DNA of 64,000 bases. Origin: Aureispira sp. CCB-QB1. Lineage in GTDB: Bacteria; Bacteroidota; Bacteroidia; Chitinophagales; Saprospiraceae. Below, piece after piece: positions 13,396-31,188 of the stretch. The notes beneath the pieces are model-generated. The model searched no databases, was not told the DNA's origin, and was given only the letters and a program-made list of their open reading frames with translations. The stretch spans positions 62,001 through 126,000 of the forward strand of contig NZ_JHBV01000008.1 in NCBI RefSeq assembly GCF_000724545.1, read 5' to 3'. The position numbers and the translations under genes were made by a program. Numbering within the stretch: the stretch's first letter is position 1; each line of letters opens with the position of its first letter.

Positions 13396-13743
13396 AAGCA
13401 GGACGTTTGGTGTGAAATTACTTTGTAGTTTTTTTTTATTCTTATGAGAAAAATCAAAAATCCACGAAGCATCAGTGTAAAATAGTAGTTGTTTTATGCT
13501 TCAATTATTAGAAGATAAAACTCGGTACCTGCTCTCTCAGTTTGTATTATTCTGAAGAGAATAGTATACCTACCTTACTATAATAAACGAATCCTACTCT
13601 AGAGGCAAGTTCAAAAAAATCAATTTATCAAAATAAAAAGGGTTGTTTTTTTTGTGAAAGGCTTGATAACAAGGTGTTAAAGCCTGTGAATTCCCCAAAA
13701 AAAACAACCCTTTTGCTTAAAAGATATTATAATTGGACTAGTA
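13396..13743. other. Intergenic region between the barrel gene and pfaD
   Basis: A 348-bp gap holding the promoter region of the leftward barrel gene and, at 13635-13714, a large nested inverted repeat acting as the likely 3' end of the PUFA operon (listed separately). No ORF in it looks real. Confidence 0.7.
13635..13714 (-). terminator. Nested long inverted repeat at the end of the PUFA synthase operon
   Basis: A perfect 19-bp inverted repeat (13636-13654 with 13696-13714) encloses a smaller stem (13659-13664 with 13680-13685). Read leftward, the outer stem ends in a pyrimidine run after CCC. It starts 30 bp beyond the pfaD stop at 13744, so it probably terminates the operon or protects its 3' end. 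The 41-nt loop is longer than in a simple intrinsic terminator. Confidence 0.7.
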
Positions 13744-15369
13744 TTAGCTAAGCAGAGCAGCAACGTGTTTTTCGTTTGGAACATAAGTTGCCCACTCGAT
13801 TGGTAAGTGTATTCCTTGCGTTTGTAAGGCTTGAACACGATAAAGATAAGCAGCGCCTTCCATGATATGCCCAGCAATATCGGCTGCTGTACGATTTTCG
13901 TAGGCCTCCAAATAAGTACCTTTTGCCCAATCATTAAAAGCACCCATTGCAGGACCACACCAGATTTGCATATCACTTACTCGCTCTTTGATACCTGCGT
14001 TTGCCCAGTTTGAAGACAAGCCTAAGTACCAACGGAAAATTAAAGCCATTTTTCGTTTAGGATTGTTTTGAGCTCGTTCAATTTGATGAGGGTCACGCTC
14101 TTGAAAGAACTCAATACAACCTTGCCAAACCTCTTCCAAAGGCTTTCTAAATGTCTGTTTTTCTAGTTTTTCTCGTTCTGCTGCTGGAATATCATCAATA
14201 GATTCATACTTCATATAATATTCATACAATTTTTTGGCTCTAGGACCGAACAAAGTACCACGTTTCAGAACTTGTAGTTCAACCCCCATTTCAAACATAT
14301 CAGAAGCAGGAGCCATCATGACATCCGTTTGAGAGACATTAGCCAATAATTTGCGCACATGCTCAGACGTTCCAGCTTCTACACAAGCTTGATTTACAGA
14401 ACCAGTTACAATATAAGCAGCTCCCATCATAAATGCAGATAAGGCAGATTCAGGAGTAGAAATTCCACCAGCTGCTCCAACACGAATGGCTGTCTTGAAT
14501 TGATGGATTAATTGCAATTCATCACGCAAACGAATGATAGAAGGCAACAAAGCAACCAGTGGACGATTGTCGGTATGTCCGCCAGAATCTGCTTCAACGG
14601 TAATGTCATCAGCCATAGGAACTTTAGCTGCCAATTCTGCTTGTAGAGTTGTGATTTTTCCAGCTGCCAACAATTTATCTAGATATTTTTTAGGAGCGGG
14701 TTGCATAAAGTGCTTTGCCACTTCTTTGCGTGAAATTTTGGCGATGACGCGATTGTTGATAACCACATTTCCCTCTGCATCTTGTGTCAAACCAGCTACA
14801 CGATAGTGTACAATATTGATCGTTAAGTTTAAGAAAGCAGAAGCCTCTACAACTTGTACACCTCTAGCTAAAAAATGCTTAACAGCACCTTCTTCCAAAG
14901 CAGGCTCATTAGGACTGTGGATTAAGTTAAACGCATAATGTTCTTTTTTTAAGGCATCTTGTATTGTATTAATAGCTTGTTCTACTCGATTAGGAACCAA
15001 GCCTGCTGCCCCAAAAGATCCCAATAATCCAGCCTTGCCCATTGCAATAACCAAAGCCTCAGAGGCAATCCCATTTGCCATAGCTCCTGTTTTATAAGCG
15101 TACTTTAGTTGGTAATCTCTTCTAAAGGTAGGATCTCCCAATTGTTGAGCAGTCATAGGAGCTACCATACCTAAAACTTGTAGACCATTACCATTGGTGG
15201 TCAATTCCCCTGCATTGGCTACTCCAATTCTATCTGCATGATCTAAAACAACAAAACAGTTGTCGCTTGTGTTTTTTAGCTTTTGCTCCATGCCAGCAGC
15301 ATCAAAGGAAATTGCTCTAGGAGAGCCTTTCCAATACAATTTTTGCTTTATTCCTGTGAAGTTAATCAT
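13744..15369 (-). CDS. pfaD: PUFA synthase enoyl reductase, PfaD
   Basis: A stand-alone FMN-dependent enoyl reductase (2-nitropropane-dioxygenase-like TIM barrel) that saturates selected double bonds on ACP-bound intermediates. Long stretches match my memory of Shewanella PfaD: 'LIHSPNEPALEEGAVKHFL', 'VEASAFLNLT', 'KISRKEVAKHFMQPAP', 'VPMADDITVEADSGGHTDN', 'AYIVTGSVNQACVEAGTSEH', 'NPKRKMALIFRWYLGLSS'. The frame opens at TTG 15420, overlapping the upstream stop, but ATG 15369 gives 541 residues beginning MINFTGIKQKLYWKG and is preferred. It is the last gene of the operon. Confidence 0.95.
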   Translation of the reverse strand: MINFTGIKQKLYWKGSPRAISFDAAGMEQKLKNTSDNCFVVLDHADRIGVANAGELTTNGNGLQVLGMVAPMTAQQLGDPTFRRDYQLKYAYKTGAMANGIASEALVIAMGKAGLLGSFGAAGLVPNRVEQAINTIQDALKKEHYAFNLIHSPNEPALEEGAVKHFLARGVQVVEASAFLNLTINIVHYRVAGLTQDAEGNVVINNRVIAKISRKEVAKHFMQPAPKKYLDKLLAAGKITTLQAELAAKVPMADDITVEADSGGHTDNRPLVALLPSIIRLRDELQLIHQFKTAIRVGAAGGISTPESALSAFMMGAAYIVTGSVNQACVEAGTSEHVRKLLANVSQTDVMMAPASDMFEMGVELQVLKRGTLFGPRAKKLYEYYMKYESIDDIPAAEREKLEKQTFRKPLEEVWQGCIEFFQERDPHQIERAQNNPKRKMALIFRWYLGLSSNWANAGIKERVSDMQIWCGPAMGAFNDWAKGTYLEAYENRTAADIAGHIMEGAAYLYRVQALQTQGIHLPIEWATYVPNEKHVAALLS

Positions 15370-15416: not shown

Positions 15417-16718
15417 TCAAAGAATGTGTTTTTTTAATAATTTTTTGAATGTTTTAACATAAGCATCTACTTCCTTCTTAGAAGATACATGGCCATCATA
15501 GCACAGTCCAATTCGCATCTTATTGTTGTAAGTATAAACACTAATATAGTGCTCAATTGTCATTGCAGAAGATACCACAACAGGAAGATAGTGCTTGACA
15601 TGATATTTTTTTGTCTGATCAAAATTTAAGCGACCATAATTGGTTAGAATAAAAGCGGTGTTAATCCGAGTTAAATCTAGTTTTTTGATCAATTTTTGAA
15701 TGAACCAATCGTTACGAATATTGTATTTGTTCAAATTAGCAATATCAATAAAACTTGGGCTAATGCCTTCCATACTGATAACCCCAAACAAATCAGGAGA
15801 GTCAAACCATTGACTTATCTTTTGTTGCAGTCCTCCTGCAAAAGCTTTGAAGGGGATTTGAGTGTTTTTAGGCAAGTCAAATTTCATAGAACTCACGTAA
15901 AGTCCCATATTGTGCCCAGGGTCTACTTTTAGCTTTTTTCGAAGATTGACAGTAACAATATAATTGTAAACCGAAGGGTATTTTTTAGGGAGATCAGCCC
16001 TTGTATACAAGAACAATGTTGCCAAAAAAGTATTGACAGAATAAGCATTTTGCTTGCAATGCTGAACAAGCTTTGTTGTTTCTTCTTCTGTTAACTCTTC
16101 TATCCACAAGCTCGTTTTTCGATTTTCCCAATAATTGGCATACATCGTATCAATCATATCTTGAGTGAGCAAAAAATCTTTTTTGCCTAACAAGCGATTG
16201 ACGAGAGACATCGCCCAATCTAGCGACTTTGGGGCTGCGGTTTCTGGGATCAACTCTTTTAAAATGCCTACAGGTCGGAGAGGCGCAAGTGCATCTCCAT
16301 TTAAGACAGCAATTAAGTCATGCAAGATATGATTCAAAGAAATCCCATCACAAATAGCATGATTAGCAACCACAATCAAATCACTATAACCACGGTGTTG
16401 ATTTAAGACAAAATGTATTAGAACGTTTTCGTTAAGTCGATGAACTGTTTGTAAATTTTCCTGCGCCAAAGTGGTATAAGAAACATCTTCATAGACTTTA
16501 ATGATGGGGGTTGCTGTTGGCTTAAAAACAAGATAAACATCATTTTTTTGATCAACAGTAGGAACCATCTGAAGAACAGGTTGCTGTTCAAGAATGGGAA
16601 TCAAGGCTTGGCTTAGTTGTTCTTTGGTAACCAGAGTATTTAATTCAATTCCTGTAACAATATTAGCATTGGGAGAAGAAATAAAAAAACGGGTGATACC
16701 AGATAGTTTTATCTTCAT
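15417..16718 (-). CDS. Condensation/acyltransferase-fold protein in the PUFA operon
   Basis: A 433-residue protein of the CoA/carrier-dependent acyltransferase superfamily (NRPS condensation, PapA5, alcohol acetyltransferase). The signature HxxxDG is clear as 'HAICDG' (His120, Asp124, Gly125). A later 'TNYGRLNFD' may replace the structural DFGWG motif. Such enzymes join acyl groups to alcohols or amines, often from carrier proteins. It lies between the KS-CLF-AT-DH-DH gene and pfaD in one operon, where canonical pfaABCD sets have no such gene. It is therefore a candidate for unloading the PUFA from ACP onto an acceptor. The role is inferred. Confidence 0.82.
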   Translation of the reverse strand: MKIKLSGITRFFISSPNANIVTGIELNTLVTKEQLSQALIPILEQQPVLQMVPTVDQKNDVYLVFKPTATPIIKVYEDVSYTTLAQENLQTVHRLNENVLIHFVLNQHRGYSDLIVVANHAICDGISLNHILHDLIAVLNGDALAPLRPVGILKELIPETAAPKSLDWAMSLVNRLLGKKDFLLTQDMIDTMYANYWENRKTSLWIEELTEEETTKLVQHCKQNAYSVNTFLATLFLYTRADLPKKYPSVYNYIVTVNLRKKLKVDPGHNMGLYVSSMKFDLPKNTQIPFKAFAGGLQQKISQWFDSPDLFGVISMEGISPSFIDIANLNKYNIRNDWFIQKLIKKLDLTRINTAFILTNYGRLNFDQTKKYHVKHYLPVVVSSAMTIEHYISVYTYNNKMRIGLCYDGHVSSKKEVDAYVKTFKKLLKKHIL

Positions 16719-16755: not shown

Positions 16756-16815
16756 AAACCACCTTACAATAAGCAAACAAGGAACACAAAGGAATGCATT
16801 ATTGTAAGATGGTTT
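16756..16815 (-). repeat. Intercistronic hairpin within the PUFA operon
   Basis: A 17-bp inverted repeat (16756-16772 with 16799-16815) with a single mismatch and a 26-nt loop, in the gap between the KS-CLF-AT-DH-DH gene (stop at 16827) and the acyltransferase-fold gene (start at 16718). No T-run follows on the transcribed strand. It may be an mRNA stability, processing or partial termination site. Confidence 0.7.
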
Positions 16816-16826
16816 AATATATACCA

Positions 16827-19800
16827 TTAAGCCTCTTTAATACCTAGTGCTAAATCAGTCACTTGATAAATACGAGTACCCTCATTCCAAAGATAAGCAT
16901 CGCCAATAATGGCAAGGGTGTCGCCACGTTTTTCAATGGTTTTGAAATGTACCTCACAATGCATATTTTCTACGCCTAACAAAATTTGCCCACGATATTT
17001 CCAGACAGTTTTGTGATGATCTAATTGCACAAATTTAGGAGATTTAAATGCTTTACCCAAGTTTTGTTGCAAAGCAAATGTTTGCATAGCTTGCAGAATC
17101 GCTTCAACTCCCAGAGAACCAGGCATAACAGGATCTTGATAGAAGTGACAGGTAAAGAACCAATCGTATGTATTAACAATTTTGCTAGCGTGGATATAGC
17201 CTTTGCCATATTCTCCGCCATCTTTGACAATTTTTAGCTTATCTAATAATAACAATTGATCACCTGCCAAGCGATAATGAGGTTTGTCTGCTGGCGCTTT
17301 GAATAGTTTCATCTTGCCATATAACGAATCTAAATTGATAGAGACATAATCTTTAGGTTGCAAATTTTGACTTACATACCAAGCAGGAACTTCTACGCCA
17401 TTATCTAAGCCAACTTGTTGTGCTAAAGCTTCGCCAGGGAAGAATCCAAAAGATGATTTTCCCTTATAAAAGACTTGACCATCAATACTTAATTCGAAGG
17501 TGTAGTTTTGTAGGACAGTGCCACCCAATGCAACGGAAGAAACCAATATCGATTTGTTATGAATTGTTTTTCCTCTCCAATCTGTTCCAAAAGGCAAATC
17601 GAACATTTCTCCTGTACCATCTAAATTACGGAAGAATAGATTTTTGTCAGAAAAAGGTAACGTAGAACCCAAATAAGCTCCCAATAGACCACAAGGTTGC
17701 AAGGCTATTTCCATCAAAACAGAGTAGGGCATCGTTGCCGTAGAGTTCTGCTCATAATACCATGCATCTACAGGAACATCGTATTCTGCGTAAATAGTAG
17801 ATGGTTTTTTGAAATTCAAGCGTTCGCCATCGATTTTTAAAACTCTAGAAATAAGCTGTAAATCTGTGTTGGGCTGACGAGAAACCGTTCTACCATCGTA
17901 ACAAGCAAAATCAGGACCAAAGGCTTTGGATAAATTATCTAGTGCGAAGGTCGTAATGTCCAATTCATTCAATAGGGCATCTTTGGAACGTGGAGAAATT
18001 TGGACACCGGCTTCTTTTTCCAAATATTTGGGGTTGTCTTTTTCTCTCAGTTGCAAACCTAAATTCTCAAAATGTACCGTAATAACACCATTAGAAATAA
18101 TCTCTAAGTCAGCAATGACATAAGGATTAGGAACTAAGCCAATTTCTTTTACTTCTAATTTGTAAATCAATTTGGTATCTTTTCCTGGAACAACTTGCTT
18201 GCGGCAACGAACCTTTTGTGGCAAATCAAAGATAGGTTGATAACGAGCATCTTTGGTTAATCGTTGCAATCCAAGCATCAACATAAAGAAACGCAATAAA
18301 TTTCCACCTCCTTCGGCTTGCAAAGAACCTGCTAATACTTCATCATCACGGAAATGACAAGGGAAGTACCAATCGGTAGGACTCAAATCTTTTTCTGCCA
18401 CAATACTTCCAAGCCCATAGGCACCACCTTCTAAATCTACAGAAGTAATTCGGTCTAGCATCAAAATTTCCTCAGGAGGCAAGCACAGAGATTTATTTCT
18501 CCCATTAGCATAATAAGAGACATTGCCAAAACATTTTTCAATATCGCCGTTGATTAGATGACGCAAATCTTCTTTCGAAAAACTTGTTTTTGTTGTGTTG
18601 AGTAATGGCGTAAATTTAGGTTTTCTAGCATTTACTTTTGCTTCTAACTCTTCTTTGCTATAAACAACACCCAAACCTTCTTCTAGCTGCTCATCTGTGA
18701 AGAAACCAGCACAACCATTGCGCATTTTTAAAACCAAACGATCTTCAACGTAACAATTGTAACTAAAGAAGAAGAGTAGATTGTCGCCATTTCTAACAAA
18801 AGAATTGATAGAAATGTCATAACGTAGAGTTTGTCCTTCAAAAGGCAAATCATCGACGAAGGTTAAGGTGCAATCCAACAAACGATAGACCAAATTGCCT
18901 TTGTTCTCAAAATCAATTCCTAAATAAGAAATCAATAATAAATCGCATTGCCCCGATTCAACAGAAACAGCCCAAGGAATTTGACCGTCTGTTGTAAACC
19001 AAGCATTGTAAGGAATATCGTACTCGGTTTGCATTGTAGAAGGCTTAAATTCGCCTTTCTTTGCGTTCAAACCCGTTACTCTACTGACCAATAGATAAGG
19101 ATCCATTGGTAGCATCACGCGTCGGCTATAGGTGTCAATAATATCATACTCAGGACCAAATACTTTTCCAATTTTTCCTGTAGCAAATTCTTGTAAATCT
19201 TCTTGCGAAAAGACAATAGTCTTTCCTTTTAAATGTTCTCCAGAGCTAAAATCTTGAAGTGACAAACCATTTTCACCAACTTTTGGATTTGAGGTTTTGT
19301 TGTTTGTTGTTTCAACTGTTTTTGTTTCCAAGGCGACGACTGATTTTTTTGTCTCAGCGGTGTACTGAGCACTAGGTATTGAAATATTTTTTTGTTCTAT
19401 TGGACTCGTAACGGTAGCGCTAGAGGTGACAAAAGTAGCTTCTGTAGCTGCTGTTGCGAGGGCTAAGGCAGGTTCTTTTCGCTTATTTTGAGATGGTAAA
19501 TTTGCAAAAGTAGCTTTGTTAGAGTCACTGAGCAAGACATCAAAAATACGCTTTCCACCTGTAATAATTTTTTTCTTAAAGGAACGAGGCTCTGCTTTTA
19601 GAGACACGTGTTTGTACAAAATGTCCAAATCCAGCTCTACGCCATGGCTCAGTAGTTGCGCAATCGCTTCCATAATATTCTGAGCTTCAGATTTGCCTTT
19701 TTTGTTCATGCTAAGTGCCAAATGTTCTTGACCTTTTAAATTCTCTTTGATCCAATTGGTACAAGTGGCATTGGCGCCTAATTCTATAAAAATCCGAGCT

Positions 19801-22800
19801 CCTCTATCGTAGATTGTTGCGACCGATTTGGGAAAATCGACGGCTTGGCAACAAACCTGTGTGGAGTTTTCGGCAATTTTTTGACTGTCAAAAGGAAGAG
19901 GCTTTGCATTAATACTAGAGTAGAAATCAATAGTAGGTTGTTGATCCAAAGGAAAACGGTGCATTTCTATCAATTCATCGTATACCAAGTTGCAAAAATC
20001 GTGGTGAATGACATTTTGAAAAGGAACTTCAACAGAAGGACAAGACAATTGTTCTACAATAGACAAACAAACACTTTTTTCTCCAGAAATAACTAATTCG
20101 TTATTGGTATTAATAAAACTAACATAAGCATTGTCATAACGAGCTACCAAGCCTTCTACTTTTTCTCTAGGAGCCAAAACGATTAAGCTAATCCATCGTT
20201 GACGAGCCTCTTCAGGACTAATGTTCCAGACTTTTGCAATGAGATTGAGATCACCAGCTAACTCTGTTAAAAATAAATTAGAATTTCTAAACGTAGCCGT
20301 ACGATCAGGACTCCAGACATCCAAAGAATACCACATACTTGCTGATTCTCCCATGCTGTACCCTAAAGCCATTTTGGGTTCTAACTTGAAATAAGAGCGC
20401 AGTATATAGGTATAAATAGCAGAAGAGAAAACACCAGCCGACATCATGCCTACAGCATCTTTGTGAATGTTGGGTGCTTCGTCTGTGATGCTTTGCGTTT
20501 GTGGGTGCAGGTACTTCGTCCCCACAAAATCAGCCATATTAGGCACCTTTGCTTCAAAATGAGTATGCAACTGAGGGAAAAGTTGAAAAATATCTTGCCC
20601 CAACCCTTGGTAAGCAGTAGCCGATCCTGGATAGACAAAGGCAACACTTCCTTTTTGAGCCAAAGGATTTCCTGTAAAGTAAGATCCCTTTGGTGTTTTA
20701 ATTTCTTTGCCCTGAGCAATCGCATTTTTTAAGCCTTTTTGAAGGAACTTTATTTCTTGTAACAATTGCTTTTTATTATTGGCAACAACCGCCATACAAT
20801 AGGTTGTTTTTTGCTGCTTTGCAGCTTGATAAAATTGCGCCGCAATTTGTACCAATGTTTTTTTACTGTCTTCAACCGTTGTTTTGAGATGGGTGATTTG
20901 ATGCTCTAACTCTGTTTCGTTATTTCCCTTCAAAATAACCACGCTTGCAATGCGCCCGTGCGTCAAAGGTGTTTCTTTTACTTCATAATTGTTGGCTTCC
21001 ACCATTTGAATTTGTAAGCCATCTAAGCCATTAATAGCAGCTCTGCGTTTGTCAATGCTATCATTCAAGAGCCAAGGTCGAGATTGACTTGGAAAATAAT
21101 AATTAGTAGTAGCAAACTCTTCTGAAAATTTGGGTGCTTTCCAATTAGGAATGCCAGGTATAAAGCGGTGGTGGAGGCACAAAGCTGTTTTTATCAAACT
21201 TGCAATGCCAGAAGCAGCACAAGTATTCCCAATATTAGCTTTAACAGACCCCAAGGCAACAGGTTGCGCTTGCTCTGTTTGCAAGAGTTGTAGTATTTCT
21301 TGATTATCTTGTGTCGAAATGCCGCTGGCGACAACTTCTTGGTAGCCTACATTTAGATTGTTTGTTGCTTGTCCAATAGAATCAATGGTAGCGTAAACTT
21401 TATCTTCTTGAGCATCTTCACTGCGTTTTAAGACGATGGCGCCTGCCCCTTCTCCGACTAGCCAGCCGTGATCATCTTGGTTAAAACTAAGGCTCGGTTT
21501 GTCTATTGTATTAACAGGCGATTTTTGGTTGCGAAGTAAGACATTCTCTAAGCCACCACAAAAATCTACACCACCAACTACTACGGCATCTACTTCACCT
21601 AAAGACAGCATATTTTGAGCAACTTCTAAGGCTTTAAAGACAGAGTTTTCGCCACAAGAAACGGTAAAGGCTGGACCAGAAAAGTCCCATAATGCCGCAA
21701 TTCTACTAGCCATGATATTACCTACAAAACTGGTGTGTTGGCTAGGTGTTTGTCCTCCCTCACGGAAATAAATAGCATTTTTGCAGCTTTCCTTTAATTG
21801 TTTTTTATTTTCCTCATCCAAAGAAATATTGCTATTTTTTAATGCTTGTTCTAATTGCCAAGTACTATCCCAACGAGCAAGGTAATGGTGAATAGCCAAC
21901 TCTGATTCCATGGCAATCAATACAGCGATATTTTGGCTTTCTTGAATTCCTGCATCTTGCAAAGCCTTATCGGCTACACTTAGAATTAAAGCCTGTTGAG
22001 GCTCTAATGTTTCTGCTTCTTTGGGCTGAATTTTATAACGCAATAGGTCTATTTCAAATGCATTGATATAAGCCCCTTTAGGAGCTTTGCCGTTTTCAAA
22101 ACCGTAATCTTTAAGCAATGCCTCGTTGGCATCAAATCCTTTCCAACGTTCGGAGGGTAGTTCTCTAAAATGCTGTTTACCATTGTAAATTGTAGCATAG
22201 AAGTCTTCTAGGTTGGTACAATCCCCAAAGTAGGCTTCCATTCCGACAATAGACATAGGAACGGGGGGTATAGGACTAGAGTTAGTTTCTTTTTGTCCTT
22301 CATAGGTTTGAATAACCATATGGGCATTGGTGCCACCAAAACCAAAGGAATTGATCCCTGCTTGATTGCCTTTCCAAGGCGTTGTTTCGGTAATAATGTG
22401 CTTATCCTGAATCCATTGGTTGTCGGCTTGAACAGCTTGTGTCAAGTTGACATTAGGAGGGATAAAACCTTTTTTCATCGAAAGCAAAACTTTAAACAAG
22501 CCCGTCATTCCTGCTGCCGTTAGCAAGTGCCCCATATTGGATTTGACAGAACCCAATAAAGGATGCGTATCATGCTGCTTAAAGAAGTTGGAAATAGAGT
22601 TCATTTCTGTGACATCTCCAAGTGGCGTTCCTGTTGCATGACATTCCAAATAACTAGTATTTTGAGGCAAAACATCATCCAATAGATAGGCGCGTTCAAA
22701 GGCTAAATTTTGTCCTTTTGGATTAGGACTTAACAAAAATTTTCCTCGTCCATCATTGGACAAGCCAATACCACCAATAACGCCCAAAATTTGGTCGCCG

Positions 22801-23630
22801 TCTCTTTGAGCATCTTCCAATCGTTTTAAAACAACAATACCAGCTCCCTCTGATGACACTAAACCGCCAGAGTTTTTGTCCAATGGTGCAAATTTTTGAT
22901 CGTGTGGGGCATAGGCATGAAAGATAGAAAAACCCATATGGATGAACAATTGGTCAGAACCACAAACAGCCCCAGCCAACATTAAATCCGTTTTACCTGT
23001 TACCAAATCATCACAAGCTAGTTTGATTGCATACAAAGAAGTGGCACAAGCCGCATCTAAGGCATAATGCCCACCACCCAAACCCAAACCTTTGACCACC
23101 ATTTCGGATGGGGTATAGGTGAGAACTTCGTTGTTAGGAGGCGGGAAGTTGTTGGCAGGAATTTTGAAATTTTTATCGTGCAGCAGCTCTTGAAGTGCTT
23201 TTTCAGTTGTTTTGGTATAAACGTCTGATAATAATCTATGTGAAGAGCCAGTAGGAAACGATAAATTTCCTAGAATCAAACCACATTTTTCTAAAACAGT
23301 TTTGTTATTATAATAACCACTGTCTTTCAAAGCTTCTTTGGCAACATAGAGCGACCATTGATACAACTTATCTTGTTGGGCTACAAAATTGGCTGAGAGT
23401 TCATATCCATTCGGATCAAAATCAAAATTTCGGATATAGCCACCTCGCAAAGAATAACATTTGTCAACAATCCCTTTGCCCGATTGGTAAAAATGATCGG
23501 GGACAACTCCAAAGTCTTCTTCGTTGGCAAACTCAATTAAATTTTTTTCACCGACCAAGTTATCCCAAAACTCTTCGTTAGTAGAAGAACCTGGAAATAA
23601 ACCTGACATTCCTATAATTGCTATTTTCAT
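16827..23630 (-). CDS. pfaC: PUFA synthase subunit KS-CLF-AT-DH-DH (PfaB-AT/PfaC type)
   Basis: A 2267-residue megasynthase subunit. Domains in order: ketosynthase, residues ~1-440 (Cys195 in DAACATS, 'HATGTPLGD', 'NMGH'); chain-length factor ~455-880, where Glu661 replaces the Cys nucleophile and NIGN (Asn802) replaces NxGH; acyltransferase ~995-1310 with GYSMGE (Ser1092); an Ala/Thr-rich linker; then two FabA-type double-hotdog dehydratases with 'CHFRDDEVLAG' (His1759) and 'CHFYQDPVMPG' (His2162). It condenses, dehydrates and isomerises acyl chains. Canonical PfaC lacks the AT, which normally sits in PfaB. The start ATG 23630 gives MKIAIIGMSGLFPG; the longer frame to 23681 runs into a hairpin. 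Confidence 0.93.
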   Translation of the reverse strand: MKIAIIGMSGLFPGSSTNEEFWDNLVGEKNLIEFANEEDFGVVPDHFYQSGKGIVDKCYSLRGGYIRNFDFDPNGYELSANFVAQQDKLYQWSLYVAKEALKDSGYYNNKTVLEKCGLILGNLSFPTGSSHRLLSDVYTKTTEKALQELLHDKNFKIPANNFPPPNNEVLTYTPSEMVVKGLGLGGGHYALDAACATSLYAIKLACDDLVTGKTDLMLAGAVCGSDQLFIHMGFSIFHAYAPHDQKFAPLDKNSGGLVSSEGAGIVVLKRLEDAQRDGDQILGVIGGIGLSNDGRGKFLLSPNPKGQNLAFERAYLLDDVLPQNTSYLECHATGTPLGDVTEMNSISNFFKQHDTHPLLGSVKSNMGHLLTAAGMTGLFKVLLSMKKGFIPPNVNLTQAVQADNQWIQDKHIITETTPWKGNQAGINSFGFGGTNAHMVIQTYEGQKETNSSPIPPVPMSIVGMEAYFGDCTNLEDFYATIYNGKQHFRELPSERWKGFDANEALLKDYGFENGKAPKGAYINAFEIDLLRYKIQPKEAETLEPQQALILSVADKALQDAGIQESQNIAVLIAMESELAIHHYLARWDSTWQLEQALKNSNISLDEENKKQLKESCKNAIYFREGGQTPSQHTSFVGNIMASRIAALWDFSGPAFTVSCGENSVFKALEVAQNMLSLGEVDAVVVGGVDFCGGLENVLLRNQKSPVNTIDKPSLSFNQDDHGWLVGEGAGAIVLKRSEDAQEDKVYATIDSIGQATNNLNVGYQEVVASGISTQDNQEILQLLQTEQAQPVALGSVKANIGNTCAASGIASLIKTALCLHHRFIPGIPNWKAPKFSEEFATTNYYFPSQSRPWLLNDSIDKRRAAINGLDGLQIQMVEANNYEVKETPLTHGRIASVVILKGNNETELEHQITHLKTTVEDSKKTLVQIAAQFYQAAKQQKTTYCMAVVANNKKQLLQEIKFLQKGLKNAIAQGKEIKTPKGSYFTGNPLAQKGSVAFVYPGSATAYQGLGQDIFQLFPQLHTHFEAKVPNMADFVGTKYLHPQTQSITDEAPNIHKDAVGMMSAGVFSSAIYTYILRSYFKLEPKMALGYSMGESASMWYSLDVWSPDRTATFRNSNLFLTELAGDLNLIAKVWNISPEEARQRWISLIVLAPREKVEGLVARYDNAYVSFINTNNELVISGEKSVCLSIVEQLSCPSVEVPFQNVIHHDFCNLVYDELIEMHRFPLDQQPTIDFYSSINAKPLPFDSQKIAENSTQVCCQAVDFPKSVATIYDRGARIFIELGANATCTNWIKENLKGQEHLALSMNKKGKSEAQNIMEAIAQLLSHGVELDLDILYKHVSLKAEPRSFKKKIITGGKRIFDVLLSDSNKATFANLPSQNKRKEPALALATAATEATFVTSSATVTSPIEQKNISIPSAQYTAETKKSVVALETKTVETTNNKTSNPKVGENGLSLQDFSSGEHLKGKTIVFSQEDLQEFATGKIGKVFGPEYDIIDTYSRRVMLPMDPYLLVSRVTGLNAKKGEFKPSTMQTEYDIPYNAWFTTDGQIPWAVSVESGQCDLLLISYLGIDFENKGNLVYRLLDCTLTFVDDLPFEGQTLRYDISINSFVRNGDNLLFFFSYNCYVEDRLVLKMRNGCAGFFTDEQLEEGLGVVYSKEELEAKVNARKPKFTPLLNTTKTSFSKEDLRHLINGDIEKCFGNVSYYANGRNKSLCLPPEEILMLDRITSVDLEGGAYGLGSIVAEKDLSPTDWYFPCHFRDDEVLAGSLQAEGGGNLLRFFMLMLGLQRLTKDARYQPIFDLPQKVRCRKQVVPGKDTKLIYKLEVKEIGLVPNPYVIADLEIISNGVITVHFENLGLQLREKDNPKYLEKEAGVQISPRSKDALLNELDITTFALDNLSKAFGPDFACYDGRTVSRQPNTDLQLISRVLKIDGERLNFKKPSTIYAEYDVPVDAWYYEQNSTATMPYSVLMEIALQPCGLLGAYLGSTLPFSDKNLFFRNLDGTGEMFDLPFGTDWRGKTIHNKSILVSSVALGGTVLQNYTFELSIDGQVFYKGKSSFGFFPGEALAQQVGLDNGVEVPAWYVSQNLQPKDYVSINLDSLYGKMKLFKAPADKPHYRLAGDQLLLLDKLKIVKDGGEYGKGYIHASKIVNTYDWFFTCHFYQDPVMPGSLGVEAILQAMQTFALQQNLGKAFKSPKFVQLDHHKTVWKYRGQILLGVENMHCEVHFKTIEKRGDTLAIIGDAYLWNEGTRIYQVTDLALGIKEA

Positions 23631-23649
23631 ATATTTTTTGATGTTGGGC

Positions 23650-23684
23650 GTTTTGGTGTGGAACACTTTATTCCACACCAAAAC
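23650..23684 (-). repeat. Strong intercistronic hairpin within the PUFA operon
   Basis: A perfect 14-bp inverted repeat (23650-23663 with 23671-23684) around a 7-nt loop, filling the 63-bp gap between the KR-DH gene and the KS-CLF-AT-DH-DH gene. No T-run follows it in the transcribed direction, and the next ATG lies 20 bp downstream. This suggests an RNA stability or processing element rather than a full terminator. Confidence 0.8.
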
Positions 23685-23693
23685 AGTTCAATT

Positions 23694-26195
23694 TTACCAT
23701 TCCAATTCCTTAGAAACAGTTACAGCTGCATTTTTTGTAAACAAGTAAACGTTTCCTTCATCGTCATAAGTAGTACAATTGGCTACCATTTTGAATTCGT
23801 TGCTTTCAACAATCTCTATGTGCACAAAAAGTTCTTTCCCAAATGGAACTGTTTTATAAACAGTTGCTGATTCGGTGGATAGAGGCAACGATTTAGCATT
23901 GTTATTATAACGTTGTACCCAAATAACCATCCCTTGATATTGGATGTCTGCAAAGAAGGTATTGACTCCAATTACTGGAAATTGTCCTTGATCCTTTGCG
24001 GGAACTTGAGGTGCTTTACATTTTAGAATAATTTGTTGTTCTGTCCAATCTACAATTTGCTCAATTCCTTGGAAATATTGATCGTGAAACAACGCTCCAT
24101 TTTCGTATAAAACAGCTCCATCAGTAGGAGTATAGGTGTTACTTAACGAAGGCTGAAATTTAGGAGCTTCTAGTTTGTTTTTCTTGGCAACTAGAGTAAC
24201 CTGTGCTTTATAATGGTAGGTTGGTAATTTTGCATTTGCAGCTTGACTCAAGATGGTCGTTTCTAATACAATTGTATCGGCATCTTTTTGAACCTCTTTT
24301 AGTTCAATAATGTAGTCAGTAGGTTCTGTACCATCAAAAACAATCCCTTTGAATAGCTTTGCATCTTTTACAAGGTGGACTCTAAAATCAGGGAATACTT
24401 GTTCACAAGTATTGGTCATCCAACCAACAGCATTAACAACAGGCAAAACGGCATTTCCTTGAATAACATGGTGCATCAAAAAAGGATTCTCCGCTAAAGT
24501 CATGTTTCTACGGATGCGGTGTGTCTCCAAAGGACCATCCGTATAAGAAATGCCAGCAGGCAAAGTACCACCAATAATAACTTGAGGTTGATTAGCATAT
24601 TGAACATTCATCTCATTTACCATCATAGCGGGACCGCCTTGGCTATTGACTAGAACAACACCCATTTCTTCAAATTTTTTCTTCAAGGCATCGCTAACCA
24701 TACCAGCATCCCAAGCGCCCCAGTTAATCGCTGAAACTTGTGTGTTGGGATGATTGGTTCTAAATAAATGTGCGGCTTTGCTCAAAATTTCATTGGCAAT
24801 AGCGTAGTCAGTTTGCCCCACATTACCATAAAAACCAGCTACAGAAGAGAATAAAATAAGGTGGTCTAGCTTGTGAATATTAACGCATTGTAATAAGGTC
24901 AACAAACCATCCAATTTTACAGTCAAAACATTTAAGAAATCTTGTTCCGTTTTATCTTGAATGTACTTATCAGCTAAACGTCCTGCACCGTGAATAACAC
25001 CTGTAATGGCTCCCCAACGTTTGGTGATGGCTAATAATTGAGGTTTTACAGTCGTAACATCTGTTACATCACCTTTTATGTAAACTGCTTTGCCACCATT
25101 TTCTTGGATGGCTTGGATCGTAGCATCAATTTCTTTTTTAGCAATAATATTGTTAAAGATTTTTTTAACCTCTGCCAAGTTAGGTTTCAAACCTTTATTT
25201 TTCATATCGGTCATAATCAAGCGCTTCAATGTGCCATCATCCGATTCATTTTGAGCATATTCTGGTATTTCAAAATCAAAGTTAGAACGCCCTAATAAAA
25301 TGAATTTGGCTTGAAATGCTTTAGCCATTTCAATGACACAATTCGCCGTAACACCACGAGCACCGCCACTCACTAGAAAGACAGAATCTTCATTAACAGT
25401 CGTTTCGATTTTTTGATGTTCTTGTACCGTTACTTTTTCAGCGTTAAGCATTGCTCTACCATTTTCATTCACTGCTGCTTCTACAACAGAAGTATTAGGA
25501 TCGTGCAATTCGCTAATAATATGTTCTGTAATTGTTTTTGTATTTAATTCTGGTTGAATATCAACAGCTCTACAATACACTTGAGACCATTCGAGATTTA
25601 GACATTTGACCAAGCCATTTAACCCACCTCCAATAATAGAAGTATTGCCACGTTTGCCTAGACCAGACTGCCCATCCAGACGAGTAATGCTCAAGAAACT
25701 AGCGCGATTTGTTTTCCCTAATTCATTAAGAGAAGGTTGAATGTGCTTTGCAATAAGGAAAATGGCTTTTACGAGGTCTCTTTCAACTGCGAAATGCTGT
25801 GTAAAGTTGCCATTTTGAAATTCAAAATGAGGGTGTAGATGAATGAAGGTACCTATAGCACCATATTGCTGTTGTATAGTTTCAATCGCAGCTTTAATGG
25901 CTTCATCAGTGTTTGAAGAAAGGGTAACACTATTGTGTTGAGAAGGATTTTTCACTTGATGAAGGTTCAGAACAACTACTTTATTACCTTCTTTTTCTAA
26001 AGCGAGGATAACTTGTTGTGTTAGTTCTGAACCATCATTAGTGATTAGTGCAACGTGCGTATCGGGCAAAGTAAATTCCAAATAATCAGGTTTGGGTAAG
26101 TACTTCAAACCAATTTCGTTGCGTTCTACACCATGAAAGGAAGATGTTCTTGTACTATTCTTTGGGTAAGTTTTTACAGTCACATCTTCTTTCAC
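23694..26195 (-). CDS. PUFA synthase subunit KR-DH (C-terminal half of PfaA as a separate gene)
   Basis: An 833-residue protein holding the ketoreductase and a PKS-type dehydratase that normally end PfaA. After an N-terminal structural Rossmann-like part, the NADPH motif GGARGVT lies near residue 273, with catalytic Ser451 (LFSSVAG) and Tyr464 (QTDYAIANE) typical of an SDR ketoreductase. The dehydratase begins near residue 560 with HVIQGNAVLP, an exact HxxxGxxxxP motif starting at His576. The start follows the upstream stop by 17 bp, so translation is probably coupled. It reduces beta-keto groups on ACP and dehydrates some of the products. Confidence 0.92.
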   Translation of the reverse strand: MKEDVTVKTYPKNSTRTSSFHGVERNEIGLKYLPKPDYLEFTLPDTHVALITNDGSELTQQVILALEKEGNKVVVLNLHQVKNPSQHNSVTLSSNTDEAIKAAIETIQQQYGAIGTFIHLHPHFEFQNGNFTQHFAVERDLVKAIFLIAKHIQPSLNELGKTNRASFLSITRLDGQSGLGKRGNTSIIGGGLNGLVKCLNLEWSQVYCRAVDIQPELNTKTITEHIISELHDPNTSVVEAAVNENGRAMLNAEKVTVQEHQKIETTVNEDSVFLVSGGARGVTANCVIEMAKAFQAKFILLGRSNFDFEIPEYAQNESDDGTLKRLIMTDMKNKGLKPNLAEVKKIFNNIIAKKEIDATIQAIQENGGKAVYIKGDVTDVTTVKPQLLAITKRWGAITGVIHGAGRLADKYIQDKTEQDFLNVLTVKLDGLLTLLQCVNIHKLDHLILFSSVAGFYGNVGQTDYAIANEILSKAAHLFRTNHPNTQVSAINWGAWDAGMVSDALKKKFEEMGVVLVNSQGGPAMMVNEMNVQYANQPQVIIGGTLPAGISYTDGPLETHRIRRNMTLAENPFLMHHVIQGNAVLPVVNAVGWMTNTCEQVFPDFRVHLVKDAKLFKGIVFDGTEPTDYIIELKEVQKDADTIVLETTILSQAANAKLPTYHYKAQVTLVAKKNKLEAPKFQPSLSNTYTPTDGAVLYENGALFHDQYFQGIEQIVDWTEQQIILKCKAPQVPAKDQGQFPVIGVNTFFADIQYQGMVIWVQRYNNNAKSLPLSTESATVYKTVPFGKELFVHIEIVESNEFKMVANCTTYDDEGNVYLFTKNAAVTVSKELEW

Positions 26196-26212: not shown

Positions 26213-29200
26213 CTAGGCTAGGATTTTTTTTTTACCTGCTTTCTCTGCCAAGTAATCGACAATTTGCCCAAGCGTACGCAATTCCGTTAGTTCTTGCGGG
26301 TTAACGCCGGATACTTCTGGATAATCTTCAGTCATCGCCCCGAAAATCTCAACACGCTTGATAGAATCAATACCCAAGTCAGCTTCCATGTCCATGTCTA
26401 GTTCCAACATTTCGGTAGGATAGCCTGTCTTTTCACTGATAACAGTCAATAAAATTTCTTCCAATTTGCTAGTGCTTAGTCCAGCATCGTTATTAGTATT
26501 AGTAGTAACTGTATTGTTAACAGGAGTGGTAGTTGTTGTAGACGTTGTCGTTGTTTGTGTTGGCGTAGTAGTAGCGCCAGCTTTACCAGCTAGGTAATCA
26601 ACAATTTGCCCAAGCGTACGCAATTCTGTTAGTTCTTGCGGATTAACGCCGGATACTTCTGGATAATCTTCAGTCATTGCCCCGAAAATTTCAACACGCT
26701 TGATAGAATCAATACCCAAGTCAGCTTCCATATCCATGTCTAGTTCCAACATTTCGGTAGGATAGCCCGTCTTTTCACTGATAACAGTCAATAAAATTTC
26801 TTCCAATTTGCTAGTGCTTAGTCCAGCATCGTTATTAGTATTAGTAGTAACCGTATTGTTAACAGGAGTGGTAGTTGTTGTAGACGTTGTCGTTGTTTGT
26901 GTTGGCGTAGTAGTAGCGCCAGCTTTACCAGCTAGGTAATCAACAATTTGCCCAAGCGTACGCAATTCCGTTAGTTCTTGCGGATTAACGCCTGATACTT
27001 CTGGATAATCTTCAGTCATTGCTCCGAAAATTTCAACACGCTTGATAGAATCAATACCCAAGTCAGCTTCCATATCCATGTCTAGTTCCAACATTTCGGT
27101 AGGATAGCCTGTCTTTTCGCTGATAACAGTCAACAAAATTTCTTCCAATTTGCTAGTGCTTAAGCTACTGACATCTGTTGTTGTTGGCATAGTAGCAGCA
27201 GGTGCTGTTGCCTTTGGCGCAGGTGTAATGATGGGCTGGTTGGTCTCTACAGTATTCGATTGAAACGTAGGAGCTGCAATTTTTTCAACCTTAGGAGCTG
27301 CAATAGATGTTTGCGTATTGCCATCCAAACTAGGCTGGTTTGCGAAATTAATTTGTTGCGTCATCATTTGTAATAACATCTGAGACTGCTTGTTCTGTTC
27401 ACTTAAAAAGTTTTGGAACAATTCTAAAGACTTATTTTGTTGAGATGTTACCATTTCAACAGTTGCTTTTAGCGTTTCAATCAATTCTTTGTTCATTTCT
27501 TCGTCTTCTTCTTGATTAATTGGATTGGAATAAACTACTTTGTCTACAGGAACCTCGACGATTTTTTCTACAATTTTTTCGACGGGAACTTCTTTTATAA
27601 CTTCAACTATTTTTTCGACCACTTTTCCATTGCCACCTTGAATTTGATACCCATCATTTAAGGCATCATAGTAAGCTTTTTGAGTTGGTTTACTAACATA
27701 GTTGTGCCCCCCCATATTGATAGTCATTTTTGTTTTGGGGGCTGGTTTTGTGCTAGGAGCCTTGAACGGGTCAATATCTTTTAGTTCTAAACCTAAAACT
27801 CTTAGTTGTAGAACCGCTTGACGGAATTGTAGGTCACTATCTTTTTTTGCATTGGCATTCATAGCCAAAGAAATATGCTCTTTGTCTTTAAGAATATCTT
27901 TGACTAAGTTTGATAGTACTCCTTTGGGACCAAATTCAATAAAAATGCGTCCACCCGCTTGGTGAATATTTTCAATTTGATTTTTGAACAAGACAGGTTT
28001 TAAAATTTGTCCTTTCAAAATTTCTTTTACCTCTGAAGGATTGTTAGGATAAGGCGTTGCTGTAGTATTGGAGTAAACAGGCACTTTGGGTGCTTGGAAA
28101 GTTTGCAAGTTAACAAACGCTGCAAAAGGCTTTTGTGCGTGTTCTACAAATTCTGTGTGAAAAGCAGCGGAAACGGGTAATGGAATCACCGTAAATCCTT
28201 GTTTTTTTAGAACTTCTTGAACATTGGCAATCACTGCTTTGCTCCCTCCTAAAATAATTTGATTGTTGGAATTTACATTGGCAATAGTGACTCCTTGTAA
28301 GGGCTTAATAGCTGCATGAACTTTGTTGTAATCTGCTTTTACAGCCAGCATGGTTCCCGCATCTGCATTAGGGCTTTGAGCTGCCATTGCTTCTCCTCTT
28401 GCTTTTGCTAAAGCTAAAAAGGTTTGATCATTATATACCCCTGCTGCCCACAGGGCGGTCAATTCACCAAAGCTATGACCAGCTACAAAATCCGCTTTAA
28501 AGCCTGCATCTTGAACCGTTTTGTACATGCCCATGCTCAGTGTTCCAATCGCAGGTTGAGCGATTTGTGTTTGAGTTAAAGCTGATAATTGAGTTTTAGC
28601 ATCCTCTTTGTTGAAAACAGGAATAGGATACATCGTTTGTGAAAGAGGGGCTTTATTGTCGTTTGCAAATAGCTTATCTTGTTGTTCTATTACCGTACGC
28701 AATTGTGGAAACGCATTTGCTAATTGGCGTCCCATTCCAACATATTGAGAACCTTGTCCCGAAAAGAGTGCCACTACTTTTCCTGTTGTGTTCATTCCAT
28801 TTGGACGGAAGAAAACACCTTTGGGATGTTCCCAAGCTTGATCGCTAGTAGCTAATTTATCAATAGCAAGTTTTAAATATTCTTTTGCTTGTTCTAAGTC
28901 TGTTACAATAAAACCTAAACGAGCAGCATTACTAGGCACTACATCTGTCTTTTCATTAGCCAATTCCCAAAAGGCAATTTCTGCATCTACCGTAGATAGT
29001 TTTTCTAGGTGACTTTGGCACAATGTTTTTAATTCGGTAACGGAGTTAGCTTGTAATAAAACAGTTTTATACGGTTCGTGAATTCTATAATTTTTCTGAA
29101 CTGGTTGTGGTTTATATTCCTCTAAGGCAATATGCACATTAATACCACCAAAACCAAAGGCACTAACACTCGCACGTCGAGGGTGCTTGTTGCTCAACCA

Positions 29201-30520
29201 AGGACGAGTTTCTGTATTAATATATAAAGGAGAGTTATTAAAATCTACTTTGGAAGTAGGTTGCTCTACATTGATGGTTGGAGGTAATACTTTGTGGTGT
29301 AGGGCTAAAATAACTTTTAGCAATCCCGCAGCACCAGCAGCAGCCTTGGTATGACCAACTTGAGATTTAACAGTTCCAAGCGCAATGTGAGATTTTTCAG
29401 GATTGTTGGCTGTAAAAACCATTCCCATAGAAGTCATTTCACAAGCATCTCCAGCATTGGTTCCTGTTCCATGTGCTTCGATTAAGCCAACTGTTTTAGG
29501 TTCAAAACCTGCCTCTTCATAAGCACGGTTCATCGCCATAGCTTGTCCTGATGGGCGAGGAGCATAAACCGATTTAAAACGTCCATCACTAGAAGTTCCA
29601 ACTCCCTTAATAACGGCATAAATAGTATCCCCATCACGTTCGGCATCTTCCAAACGTTTTAATACGACCATTCCCAAGCCTTCACCAATTAACATACCAT
29701 CGGCTTTGTCGCTAAATGGACTGATAACATTTGATTTGGAAAAAGCAGGTGTCTTAGAAAAGGACATATACATGAAAGGAGAGTTATCCGTGTCAACACC
29801 ACCCGTCAACATCATGTCTGCACGTCCTTCGACTAATTCGCTTAAAGCCATTTTTACGGCACTTAAAGAGGCGGCACAAGCTGCATCTACAACAGAGTTG
29901 ATACCTCCTAAGTCAAATCGATTAGTGATTCGCCCTGAAATGACGTTTCCTAACATACCAGGGAAGGAGTTTTCATTCCAACCAATATAGGCTTTTTTCA
30001 TTTTGTCTACAATGTGTGGAATATCGGTTTCGGCAACACCACAAGAACGCAATGCTTTTTCCCAAATAGGATATTGTAAACGTCCAGTTAGAGGCGTAAT
30101 CAATTTTTGACCGCCACCAACACCTAGCAAAACACCAGTTTTGCTTTTTACTTCAGCGGTGAATTTTGCAGATTTCTTGCCATATCCAGCATGTTCAAAG
30201 GCATCACGAGCAGCAATTAAAGCCAATAGTTGCGAAGCATCAGTTACCTCTAAAATGTTAGGGGGCAAACCAAATTCCATTGGGTTAAAATCAATGTCTG
30301 GCAAAAAGCCACCACGTTTACAGTATGTTTTGTCTGGAGCTGTTGGGTCTGGATCGTAGTAATCTTCTATTCGCCAACGGTCTTCAGGTACATCAGTGAT
30401 GCTATCTTTAGCTTGAATAATATTATTCCAGAAGTCTTCTATGTTTTTTGCATCTGCAAATAACGAAGACATACCGATAACGGCGACTGGAGTTTTTCTA
30501 AGAGAATTATTTAAGTTCAT
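26213..30520 (-). CDS. pfaA: PUFA synthase subunit KS-MAT-3xACP (N-terminal half of PfaA)
   Basis: A 1435-residue subunit. Ketosynthase ~10-465 with Cys215 (DAACAAS), 'EAHGTGTNAGD' and 'QVGHTKAAAG'. Malonyl-CoA transacylase ~600-890 with 'FSGQGSQYVGMGR' and GHSFGE (Ser683). A charged, Val/Glu/Lys-rich and probably helical linker spans ~1000-1080. Three near-identical acyl carrier proteins follow, with LGIDSIKR serines 1158, 1272 and 1386, joined by Thr-rich linkers. It loads malonate and carries the growing chain. Unlike Shewanella PfaA the protein stops after the ACPs, and KR-DH is the next gene. It lies 50 bp after a TetR gene. Confidence 0.95.
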   Translation of the reverse strand: MNLNNSLRKTPVAVIGMSSLFADAKNIEDFWNNIIQAKDSITDVPEDRWRIEDYYDPDPTAPDKTYCKRGGFLPDIDFNPMEFGLPPNILEVTDASQLLALIAARDAFEHAGYGKKSAKFTAEVKSKTGVLLGVGGGQKLITPLTGRLQYPIWEKALRSCGVAETDIPHIVDKMKKAYIGWNENSFPGMLGNVISGRITNRFDLGGINSVVDAACAASLSAVKMALSELVEGRADMMLTGGVDTDNSPFMYMSFSKTPAFSKSNVISPFSDKADGMLIGEGLGMVVLKRLEDAERDGDTIYAVIKGVGTSSDGRFKSVYAPRPSGQAMAMNRAYEEAGFEPKTVGLIEAHGTGTNAGDACEMTSMGMVFTANNPEKSHIALGTVKSQVGHTKAAAGAAGLLKVILALHHKVLPPTINVEQPTSKVDFNNSPLYINTETRPWLSNKHPRRASVSAFGFGGINVHIALEEYKPQPVQKNYRIHEPYKTVLLQANSVTELKTLCQSHLEKLSTVDAEIAFWELANEKTDVVPSNAARLGFIVTDLEQAKEYLKLAIDKLATSDQAWEHPKGVFFRPNGMNTTGKVVALFSGQGSQYVGMGRQLANAFPQLRTVIEQQDKLFANDNKAPLSQTMYPIPVFNKEDAKTQLSALTQTQIAQPAIGTLSMGMYKTVQDAGFKADFVAGHSFGELTALWAAGVYNDQTFLALAKARGEAMAAQSPNADAGTMLAVKADYNKVHAAIKPLQGVTIANVNSNNQIILGGSKAVIANVQEVLKKQGFTVIPLPVSAAFHTEFVEHAQKPFAAFVNLQTFQAPKVPVYSNTTATPYPNNPSEVKEILKGQILKPVLFKNQIENIHQAGGRIFIEFGPKGVLSNLVKDILKDKEHISLAMNANAKKDSDLQFRQAVLQLRVLGLELKDIDPFKAPSTKPAPKTKMTINMGGHNYVSKPTQKAYYDALNDGYQIQGGNGKVVEKIVEVIKEVPVEKIVEKIVEVPVDKVVYSNPINQEEDEEMNKELIETLKATVEMVTSQQNKSLELFQNFLSEQNKQSQMLLQMMTQQINFANQPSLDGNTQTSIAAPKVEKIAAPTFQSNTVETNQPIITPAPKATAPAATMPTTTDVSSLSTSKLEEILLTVISEKTGYPTEMLELDMDMEADLGIDSIKRVEIFGAMTEDYPEVSGVNPQELTELRTLGQIVDYLAGKAGATTTPTQTTTTSTTTTTPVNNTVTTNTNNDAGLSTSKLEEILLTVISEKTGYPTEMLELDMDMEADLGIDSIKRVEIFGAMTEDYPEVSGVNPQELTELRTLGQIVDYLAGKAGATTTPTQTTTTSTTTTTPVNNTVTTNTNNDAGLSTSKLEEILLTVISEKTGYPTEMLELDMDMEADLGIDSIKRVEIFGAMTEDYPEVSGVNPQELTELRTLGQIVDYLAEKAGKKKILA
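26225..27165 (-). repeat. Three tandem near-identical ACP repeats, 342-bp period
   Basis: The same ACP-plus-linker DNA recurs at 342-bp steps (114 codons), e.g. the shared AGCGTACGCA at 26271, 26613 and 26955. The copies differ by only scattered, mostly silent changes, and even the Thr-rich linkers match. The 3'-most copy lacks the linker and ends in a Lys-rich tail. Confidence 0.93.
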
Positions 30521-30570: not shown

Positions 30571-31188
30571 TTAGAGCAAGACTTTAAAAAGTTCTTCTTG
30601 CATTTTTAGTTGTTGTATTCCTTTTTCGGTGCAAACACCTCTTAAGTAGGGAAGCATAATCCCAAATGTTAAGCGTTCTTTGCTGTATTCGCTTACAGGG
30701 AAGCGATTGGTATCTTTTAGCATTTCTAATAATGCTAATACAGTTTTGCTAGTGACTTGAATGTCCATGTCTTCCCTAAATAGACCATCCTTAATACCCC
30801 ATTTAGCCAAGTATTCTAGTTCGGAATGTGCAAAGTTGCCCATATTTCGATAGGACTTTTGTAATAGACCTGGGTAGTAATGAAGGATGTCGTTAAAGAA
30901 ATTAGGATTTGTTTGGCTGGCTCTAAAGACAATGCGTTGATGCAAGTACCCCATCGCTTGAATTGCATTTTCAGAGGCTTGGATAATGTCATCATTTTCT
31001 TTGCGTATCTCTTTGTGATAACTGGCTAAGCAAGCTTCAAGGAGAGCCGTTTTATCTTCAAAATGTTTGTAAATGGTTCGTTTTGATGTATGAAGTTGTT
31101 TGACAATACGATCTATCGTGATGCTTTTAACACCATGTTCTACAAATAGTAGTGAAGCAACTTCGATTATTTTTTCTCTAGCAACCAT
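30571..31188 (-). CDS. TetR-family regulator at the head of the PUFA operon
   Basis: A 205-residue regulator with an N-terminal helix-turn-helix ('GVKSITIDRIVKQLHTSKRT', 'IYKHFEDKTALLEACL') and a helical ligand-binding C-terminal domain. It lies immediately upstream of the KS-MAT-ACP gene on the same strand with a 50-bp gap and no terminator, so it may be the first gene of the operon. TetR/FadR-type regulators of lipid genes often sense acyl-CoAs; that this one senses a fatty acyl product is inference. Confidence 0.88.
   Translation of the reverse strand: MVAREKIIEVASLLFVEHGVKSITIDRIVKQLHTSKRTIYKHFEDKTALLEACLASYHKEIRKENDDIIQASENAIQAMGYLHQRIVFRASQTNPNFFNDILHYYPGLLQKSYRNMGNFAHSELEYLAKWGIKDGLFREDMDIQVTSKTVLALLEMLKDTNRFPVSEYSKERLTFGIMLPYLRGVCTEKGIQQLKMQEELFKVLL

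Follow-up and report, generated by a model that had tools for sequence, protein, structure and literature searches.

The gene between the pfaC-like gene and pfaD in the Aureispira PUFA synthase locus looks like a clade-specific accessory acyltransferase, an add-on to the synthase rather than its missing release step. The window (the whole stretch of DNA analysed, 64,000 nucleotides) comes from a 7.37 Mb Aureispira-type genome, and on its minus strand the genes run in the order TetR gene, pfaA1, pfaA2, pfaBC, acyltransferase gene, pfaD (Table 1). The ORF and the gene order were found exactly as the initial annotation had described them. The acyltransferase gene lies 108 bp downstream of the pfaC-like gene and 47 bp upstream of the likely pfaD ATG at 15369 (as listed, the pfaD ORF begins with a TTG further upstream, but its relatives start at the position of this ATG; relatives of pfaBC likewise start at residue 18 of the window's ORF). 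Orthologues occupy the same site in three other genomes of the genus, G451 (same species, 99.3% identity to the window's protein), G003 (53%) and G006 (48%), and dN/dS between species, estimated by NG86 only and with dS saturated (1.3–1.97), is 0.17–0.29. The ORF is therefore not a chance one, and its status as a genuine gene is confirmed.

Table 1. Features of the pfa locus, in coordinates of the window.
Feature	Position	Strand	Basis or remark
Hairpin after pfaD	13636..13714 (approximate limits)	-	z -3.8
pfaD (enoyl reductase)	13744..15369	-	TIGR02814 662.7 bits, cut-off 449.25
HxxxDG acyltransferase gene	15417..16718	-	433 aa, ATG start; ORF and family matches
HAICDG motif	16344..16361	-	residues 120-125 of the acyltransferase
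Stable hairpin between pfaBC and the acyltransferase gene	16756..16815	-	z -4.9; putatively terminator-like
pfaBC (KS-CLF-AT-DH)	16827..23681	-	domain matches
GYSMG of the PfaB-type acyltransferase domain in pfaBC	20349..20363	-	residues 1107-1111
pfaA2 (KR, PKS-DH)	23694..26195	-	domain matches
pfaA1 (KS, MAT, three ACP repeats)	26213..30520	-	domain matches
TetR-type regulator, upstream of pfaA1, same direction	30571..31188	-	

The surrounding genes form a type D pfa set, the arrangement reported for Psychroflexus torquis and A. marina in the accounts cited (PMC3098273; PMC4882568): pfaA is split into a KS-AT-ACP and a KR gene, pfaB is fused to pfaC (the PfaB-type domain scores 152.6 bits with TIGR02816, cut-off 144.3) and pfaD is present. 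The three ACP repeats of pfaA1 compare with four given for A. marina (PMC5067506) and five given for type D (PMC3098273); as this is a 184-contig draft, near-identical repeats may have been collapsed. The TetR-type regulator has counterparts upstream of pfaA in two other genomes (G027, 64% identical; G016, 56%), and a divergent gene for a 970-aa leucine-rich-repeat protein (31522–34434) adjoins the set.

On sequence grounds the protein belongs to the CAT/condensation/PapA superfamily, as had been claimed from its HxxxDG motif, without assignment to a named family inside that superfamily. A homologue profile built from five sequences (three from Aureispira, with G688 and G529) matched bacitracin synthetase 3 with an E value of 2.9e-14 and PDB entry 8s6l, a PapA5-named structure (phthiocerol/phthiodiolone dimycocerosyl transferase), with 6.8e-14 over positions 3–318 of 433; the match to PapA5 proper (1q9j) was weak (E 0.026). 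H120 and D124 of the motif, together with R260, are invariant in 17/17 aligned relatives and G125 is kept in 16/17, and in the profile alignment the stretch LR..L..DPG..MG.YV falls opposite GR...G.FVNT of bacitracin synthetase 3. Searches with the single sequence were less telling about the family. AATase (PF07247) was the sole Pfam family above its cut-off (26.2 bits, cut-off 22), a weak and partial match whose best stretch is the C-terminal part only (206–427). Condensation (26.7 bits) and PapA_C (25.6 bits) fell below their cut-offs of 30.6 and 30, and the NCBIfam PapA5 equivalogs fell far below theirs (13.6 against 716 bits and 13.5 against 539). A PF07247 search of the nine genus genomes gave zero matches, the window's own protein included, and its controls were silent, so it says nothing about absence. 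No superfamily member was matched by phmmer against PDB with the single sequence. Two hits to residues 188–270, outside the active-site motif, were treated as chance: 5urp, ‘Toxin 2A’ (PDB, E 0.0038), and a sub-cut-off ADP-ribosyltransferase match (E 0.23). An AlphaFold model (job on two sequences) had a pLDDT of 41, too poor for a reading of pocket or fold.

The distribution of the gene was compared with that of pfaD, which is above its curated cut-off in all nine genomes of the genus. Four of the nine carry the acyltransferase gene (the window's own genome, G000, with G451, G003 and G006), always between pfaC and pfaD, 23–47 bp upstream of pfaD. The other five (G001, G002, G004, G005 and G007; completeness 92–99) have no match at E 0.001 genome-wide, and direct reading of their loci shows pfaC followed directly by pfaD with a junction of 35–312 bp. 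The strongest case is G001, which groups as sister to the carrier G006 with a bootstrap of 100 in the PfaC+PfaD tree, is 92% (PfaC) and 94% (PfaD) identical to it, and has a pfaC–pfaD gap of 75 bp. In Saprospiraceae as a whole, 47 genomes have pfaD above the cut-off (44/298 in the family search, plus G001, G004 and G006). Of these, 34 pfaD loci were inspected over roughly 1.28 kb upstream of pfaD. The acyltransferase gene adjoins pfaD in four of the 34, all in Aureispira; the end of PfaC lies within that stretch in 19; and 11 show neither (one of these starts inside pfaD and one belongs to another PKS). In 395 genomes of the phylum TIGR02814 was above its cut-off in the window's genome only, and the pfa survey thus concerns Saprospiraceae. 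At 4/9 genus genomes and 4/34 family loci this is not a core pfa gene, in keeping with the earlier statement that canonical pfa sets do not include one. In G010 the intact pfaD is followed, about 1 kb further on, by a short C-terminal pfaD-like fragment (L031, G010:C79:75393-75539).

The initial annotation had described the gene as embedded in the PUFA operon. This holds for its position between pfaC and pfaD, but may hold for position only, because a stable hairpin lies directly upstream of the gene in all three carrier species folded (z -4.9 in the window, -3.7 in G003 and -5.8 in G006). The pfaC–pfaD spacers of four non-carriers have no stable hairpin (z -0.6 to 1.2), a weak control as those of G004, G005 and G007 are only 35–53 nt long. 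In the fifth non-carrier, G002, the spacer is longer and its last 150 bases are structured (z -4.2), which counts against a strict link between hairpin and gene. A stable hairpin also follows pfaD in the three carriers (z -3.8, -5.7 and -6.8). The upstream hairpin may be the terminator of the upstream unit, leaving the acyltransferase gene and pfaD on a transcript of their own. It was not among the 21 sites of a terminator scan (13.8 expected), which does not accept loops of that length. As a promoter scan returned 45 sites against 50.9 expected and no promoter was called, we put forward the separate transcript as an inference.

That the enzyme transfers an acyl group to an alcohol, an amine or a lipid is still a fair guess. 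We give about an even chance to an optional PapA/AATase-like enzyme that would transfer such a group from a thioester to a special acceptor. The chain, plausibly the PUFA of the neighbouring synthase, would be taken from ACP or CoA with His120 as general base and passed to a hydroxyl or amine of that acceptor, and the product would be a clade-specific minor lipid. Bulk PUFA would be released by the synthase itself, via the PfaB-type AT fused to PfaC, and ordinary PlsC-type acyltransferases would then act on it; PF01553 (PlsC-type) proteins are found in 9/9 genus genomes, with 10 matches in the window's genome. The gene with its position, motif and superfamily, its patchy presence, the selection on it and the hairpin upstream are observed, whereas acyl transfer, the PUFA as donor and the nature of the acceptor are all proposed on the same footing as the separate transcript. 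A narrower version, in which a PapA-type enzyme moves the finished PUFA from the tandem ACPs to an alcohol, sugar or sphingoid acceptor as a second, optional exit, is rather doubtful.

An enzyme of this optional kind, acting on what the synthase makes, is the best single reading because relatives of the protein are linked to PKS genes and because PapA5, according to PMC5064953, transfers a PKS-bound chain onto an alcohol. The PKS-linked relatives are tandem H...DG acyltransferases that adjoin PUFA-type PKS genes in G266, G301 and G820 (G321 has the first tandem copy only, as its contig ends there). Alongside them are a KS-AT-PPTase protein, an alpha/beta hydrolase and MGT-type glycosyltransferases, and in G266 the large partner has the domain order NMO-KS-AT-ACP-KR; these contents come from domain searches for G266 and G820 and from sequence similarity for G301 and G321. 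With hhalign, the Aureispira profile was matched by one copy from G820 (E 2.8e-13), and those tandem copies that were aligned are only 17–20% identical to the Aureispira protein. Perhaps these clusters are the type N secondary lipid synthase of Shulse and Allen, described in PMC3098273 from Chitinophaga and Chryseobacterium. The recurring loci are L057:7021-17808 with L065:828-7853, L056:1147-11906 and L117:3-16093, and the cluster also codes for a small membrane protein. Other matches in the phylum and order were mostly NRPS-sized frames or unlinked genes.

The main rival holds that the donor is not a PUFA but a short or branched acyl or an aminoacyl group, and that the gene merely sits in the spacer and lends pfaD a promoter. 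We regard this as somewhat unlikely, although several observations speak for it. The best family relatives outside the genus are in G688 (31% identical, with HAICDG) and G529 (21–25%), and the G688 homologue lies on a different contig from the pfa genes, next to genes for TPR/LuxR-like and two-component-propeller proteins, with a gap of 44 bp between that genome's own pfaC and pfaD; the acyltransferase family is therefore not tied to PUFA synthesis. The spacers of pfa sets also accept other genes, as the 585-aa ORF between pfaA2 and pfaC in G002 (L035:5398-7155) indicates; G003 has an ABA4-like gene (L038:6897-7337) between pfaC and the hairpin upstream of the acyltransferase gene, and G022 has a 147-aa ORF between pfaC and pfaD. 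Further support comes from the rate and history of the gene. Between carrier species the acyltransferase is 48–66% identical, compared with 83–85% for PfaC and 88–90% for PfaD, and its dN/dS compares with 0.04–0.07 for PfaC and PfaD, so that it is under constraint but much weaker than its neighbours and diverges much faster. Its tree groups G003 with G006 (support 99), the PfaC+PfaD tree G003 with G000 (support 95). When the acyltransferase tree was constrained to the pfa grouping, the AU test rejected it marginally (p 0.031, dependent on distant outgroups), and the reverse constraint was rejected at 4.5e-5; the G003–G000 grouping is recovered by PfaC and by the concatenation but not by PfaD alone. 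The conflict would be accounted for by transfer of the gene between members of the genus or by uneven loss. Against a donor unrelated to the synthase stand the purifying selection on the gene and the fact that the same junction, directly upstream of pfaD, has been kept in three species.

The initial annotation had gone further and offered the gene as the answer to chain release, the step that would carry the finished PUFA from ACP to a lipid acceptor. The position of the gene in the four carriers and the ability of the superfamily to move a PKS chain to an alcohol, as PapA5 is described to do (PMC5064953), are what such a role would lead one to expect, and in E. coli the A. marina pfaA–E genes are reported to make only little arachidonic acid (PMC5067506). 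We nevertheless find the role unsupported and consider it improbable. A conservation survey of related pfa operons, the check that the initial annotation itself had set, found the gene absent from five of nine pfaD-positive congeners, the sister of a carrier included, and adjoining pfaD in few of the family loci; PUFA release in type D sets cannot in general depend on it. A published off-loading candidate is, moreover, already fused into the adjacent PfaC. According to PMC12895367, PfaB is a terminal acyltransferase for long chains and determines which product is made; off-loading is named there as something it may also do, which has yet to be confirmed. Thraustochytrid AT domains are credited in PMC9702510 with thioesterase activity on long acyl-ACP; the window's PfaB-type domain has, in GYSMG, the tyrosine before the serine that is described for PfaB (PMC12895367). 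The five A. marina genes are reported to yield arachidonic acid in E. coli (PMC5067506), and since output rose 48-fold when only pfaA was replaced, according to the same source, lack of a release enzyme does not account for the low yield. The comparative result directs attention back to the PfaB-type domain fused to PfaC. That the protein has no catalytic role, being a scaffold or regulator of the synthase or in decay, is very improbable: it evolves faster than its neighbours and is gone from G001, but the motif (save one change of G125) and R260 are kept in the aligned relatives, the frame is intact in 4/4 carriers and dN/dS is well below 1.

If the optional transferase does use PUFA, the PUFA synthase of some Aureispira would have an exit that is optional and can be separated genetically, and were the chain taken from the tandem ACPs these organisms would contain a PUFA lipid outside the glycerophospholipids. 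Such an enzyme would be useful for PUFA ester production and for probing roles of PUFA outside phospholipids. The clusters of other Bacteroidota in which this superfamily occurs with PUFA-type PKS genes also offer material for exploration. A limited literature search, which took in few subscription papers, found no published description of the acyltransferase gene.

Among known systems, the PapA-type enzymes (8s6l, 1q9j) resemble the Aureispira protein in size, in HxxxDG, in the profile match and in being coded beside a PKS-type synthase, but the protein lies under the PapA_C and PapA5 equivalog cut-offs and 1q9j is matched only at the weak E value given above. The AATase family (yeast Atf1p type) is the one whose Pfam cut-off is passed, though through the C-terminal part only. 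NRPS condensation domains have HxxxDG and the bacitracin synthetase 3 match in common with it, whereas the Aureispira protein is a stand-alone one of 433 aa without carrier or adenylation domains. The Bacteroidota tandem acyltransferases belong to the same superfamily, also have PUFA-type PKS neighbours and have HC.CDG in most copies; they differ in occurring as pairs and in having glycosyltransferase and hydrolase genes nearby, neither of which was seen in the Aureispira set. The AGPAT domain of myxobacterial Pfa3, compared from its description in a review (PMC4882568), is likewise a lipid-loading acyltransferase within a PUFA synthase set, but of PlsC type and not HxxxDG. The AT (PfaB) fused to type D PfaC is, like the accessory enzyme, a candidate for late acyl handling and off-loading; unlike it, it is of another family with another motif (GYSMG) and belongs to the pfa set itself.
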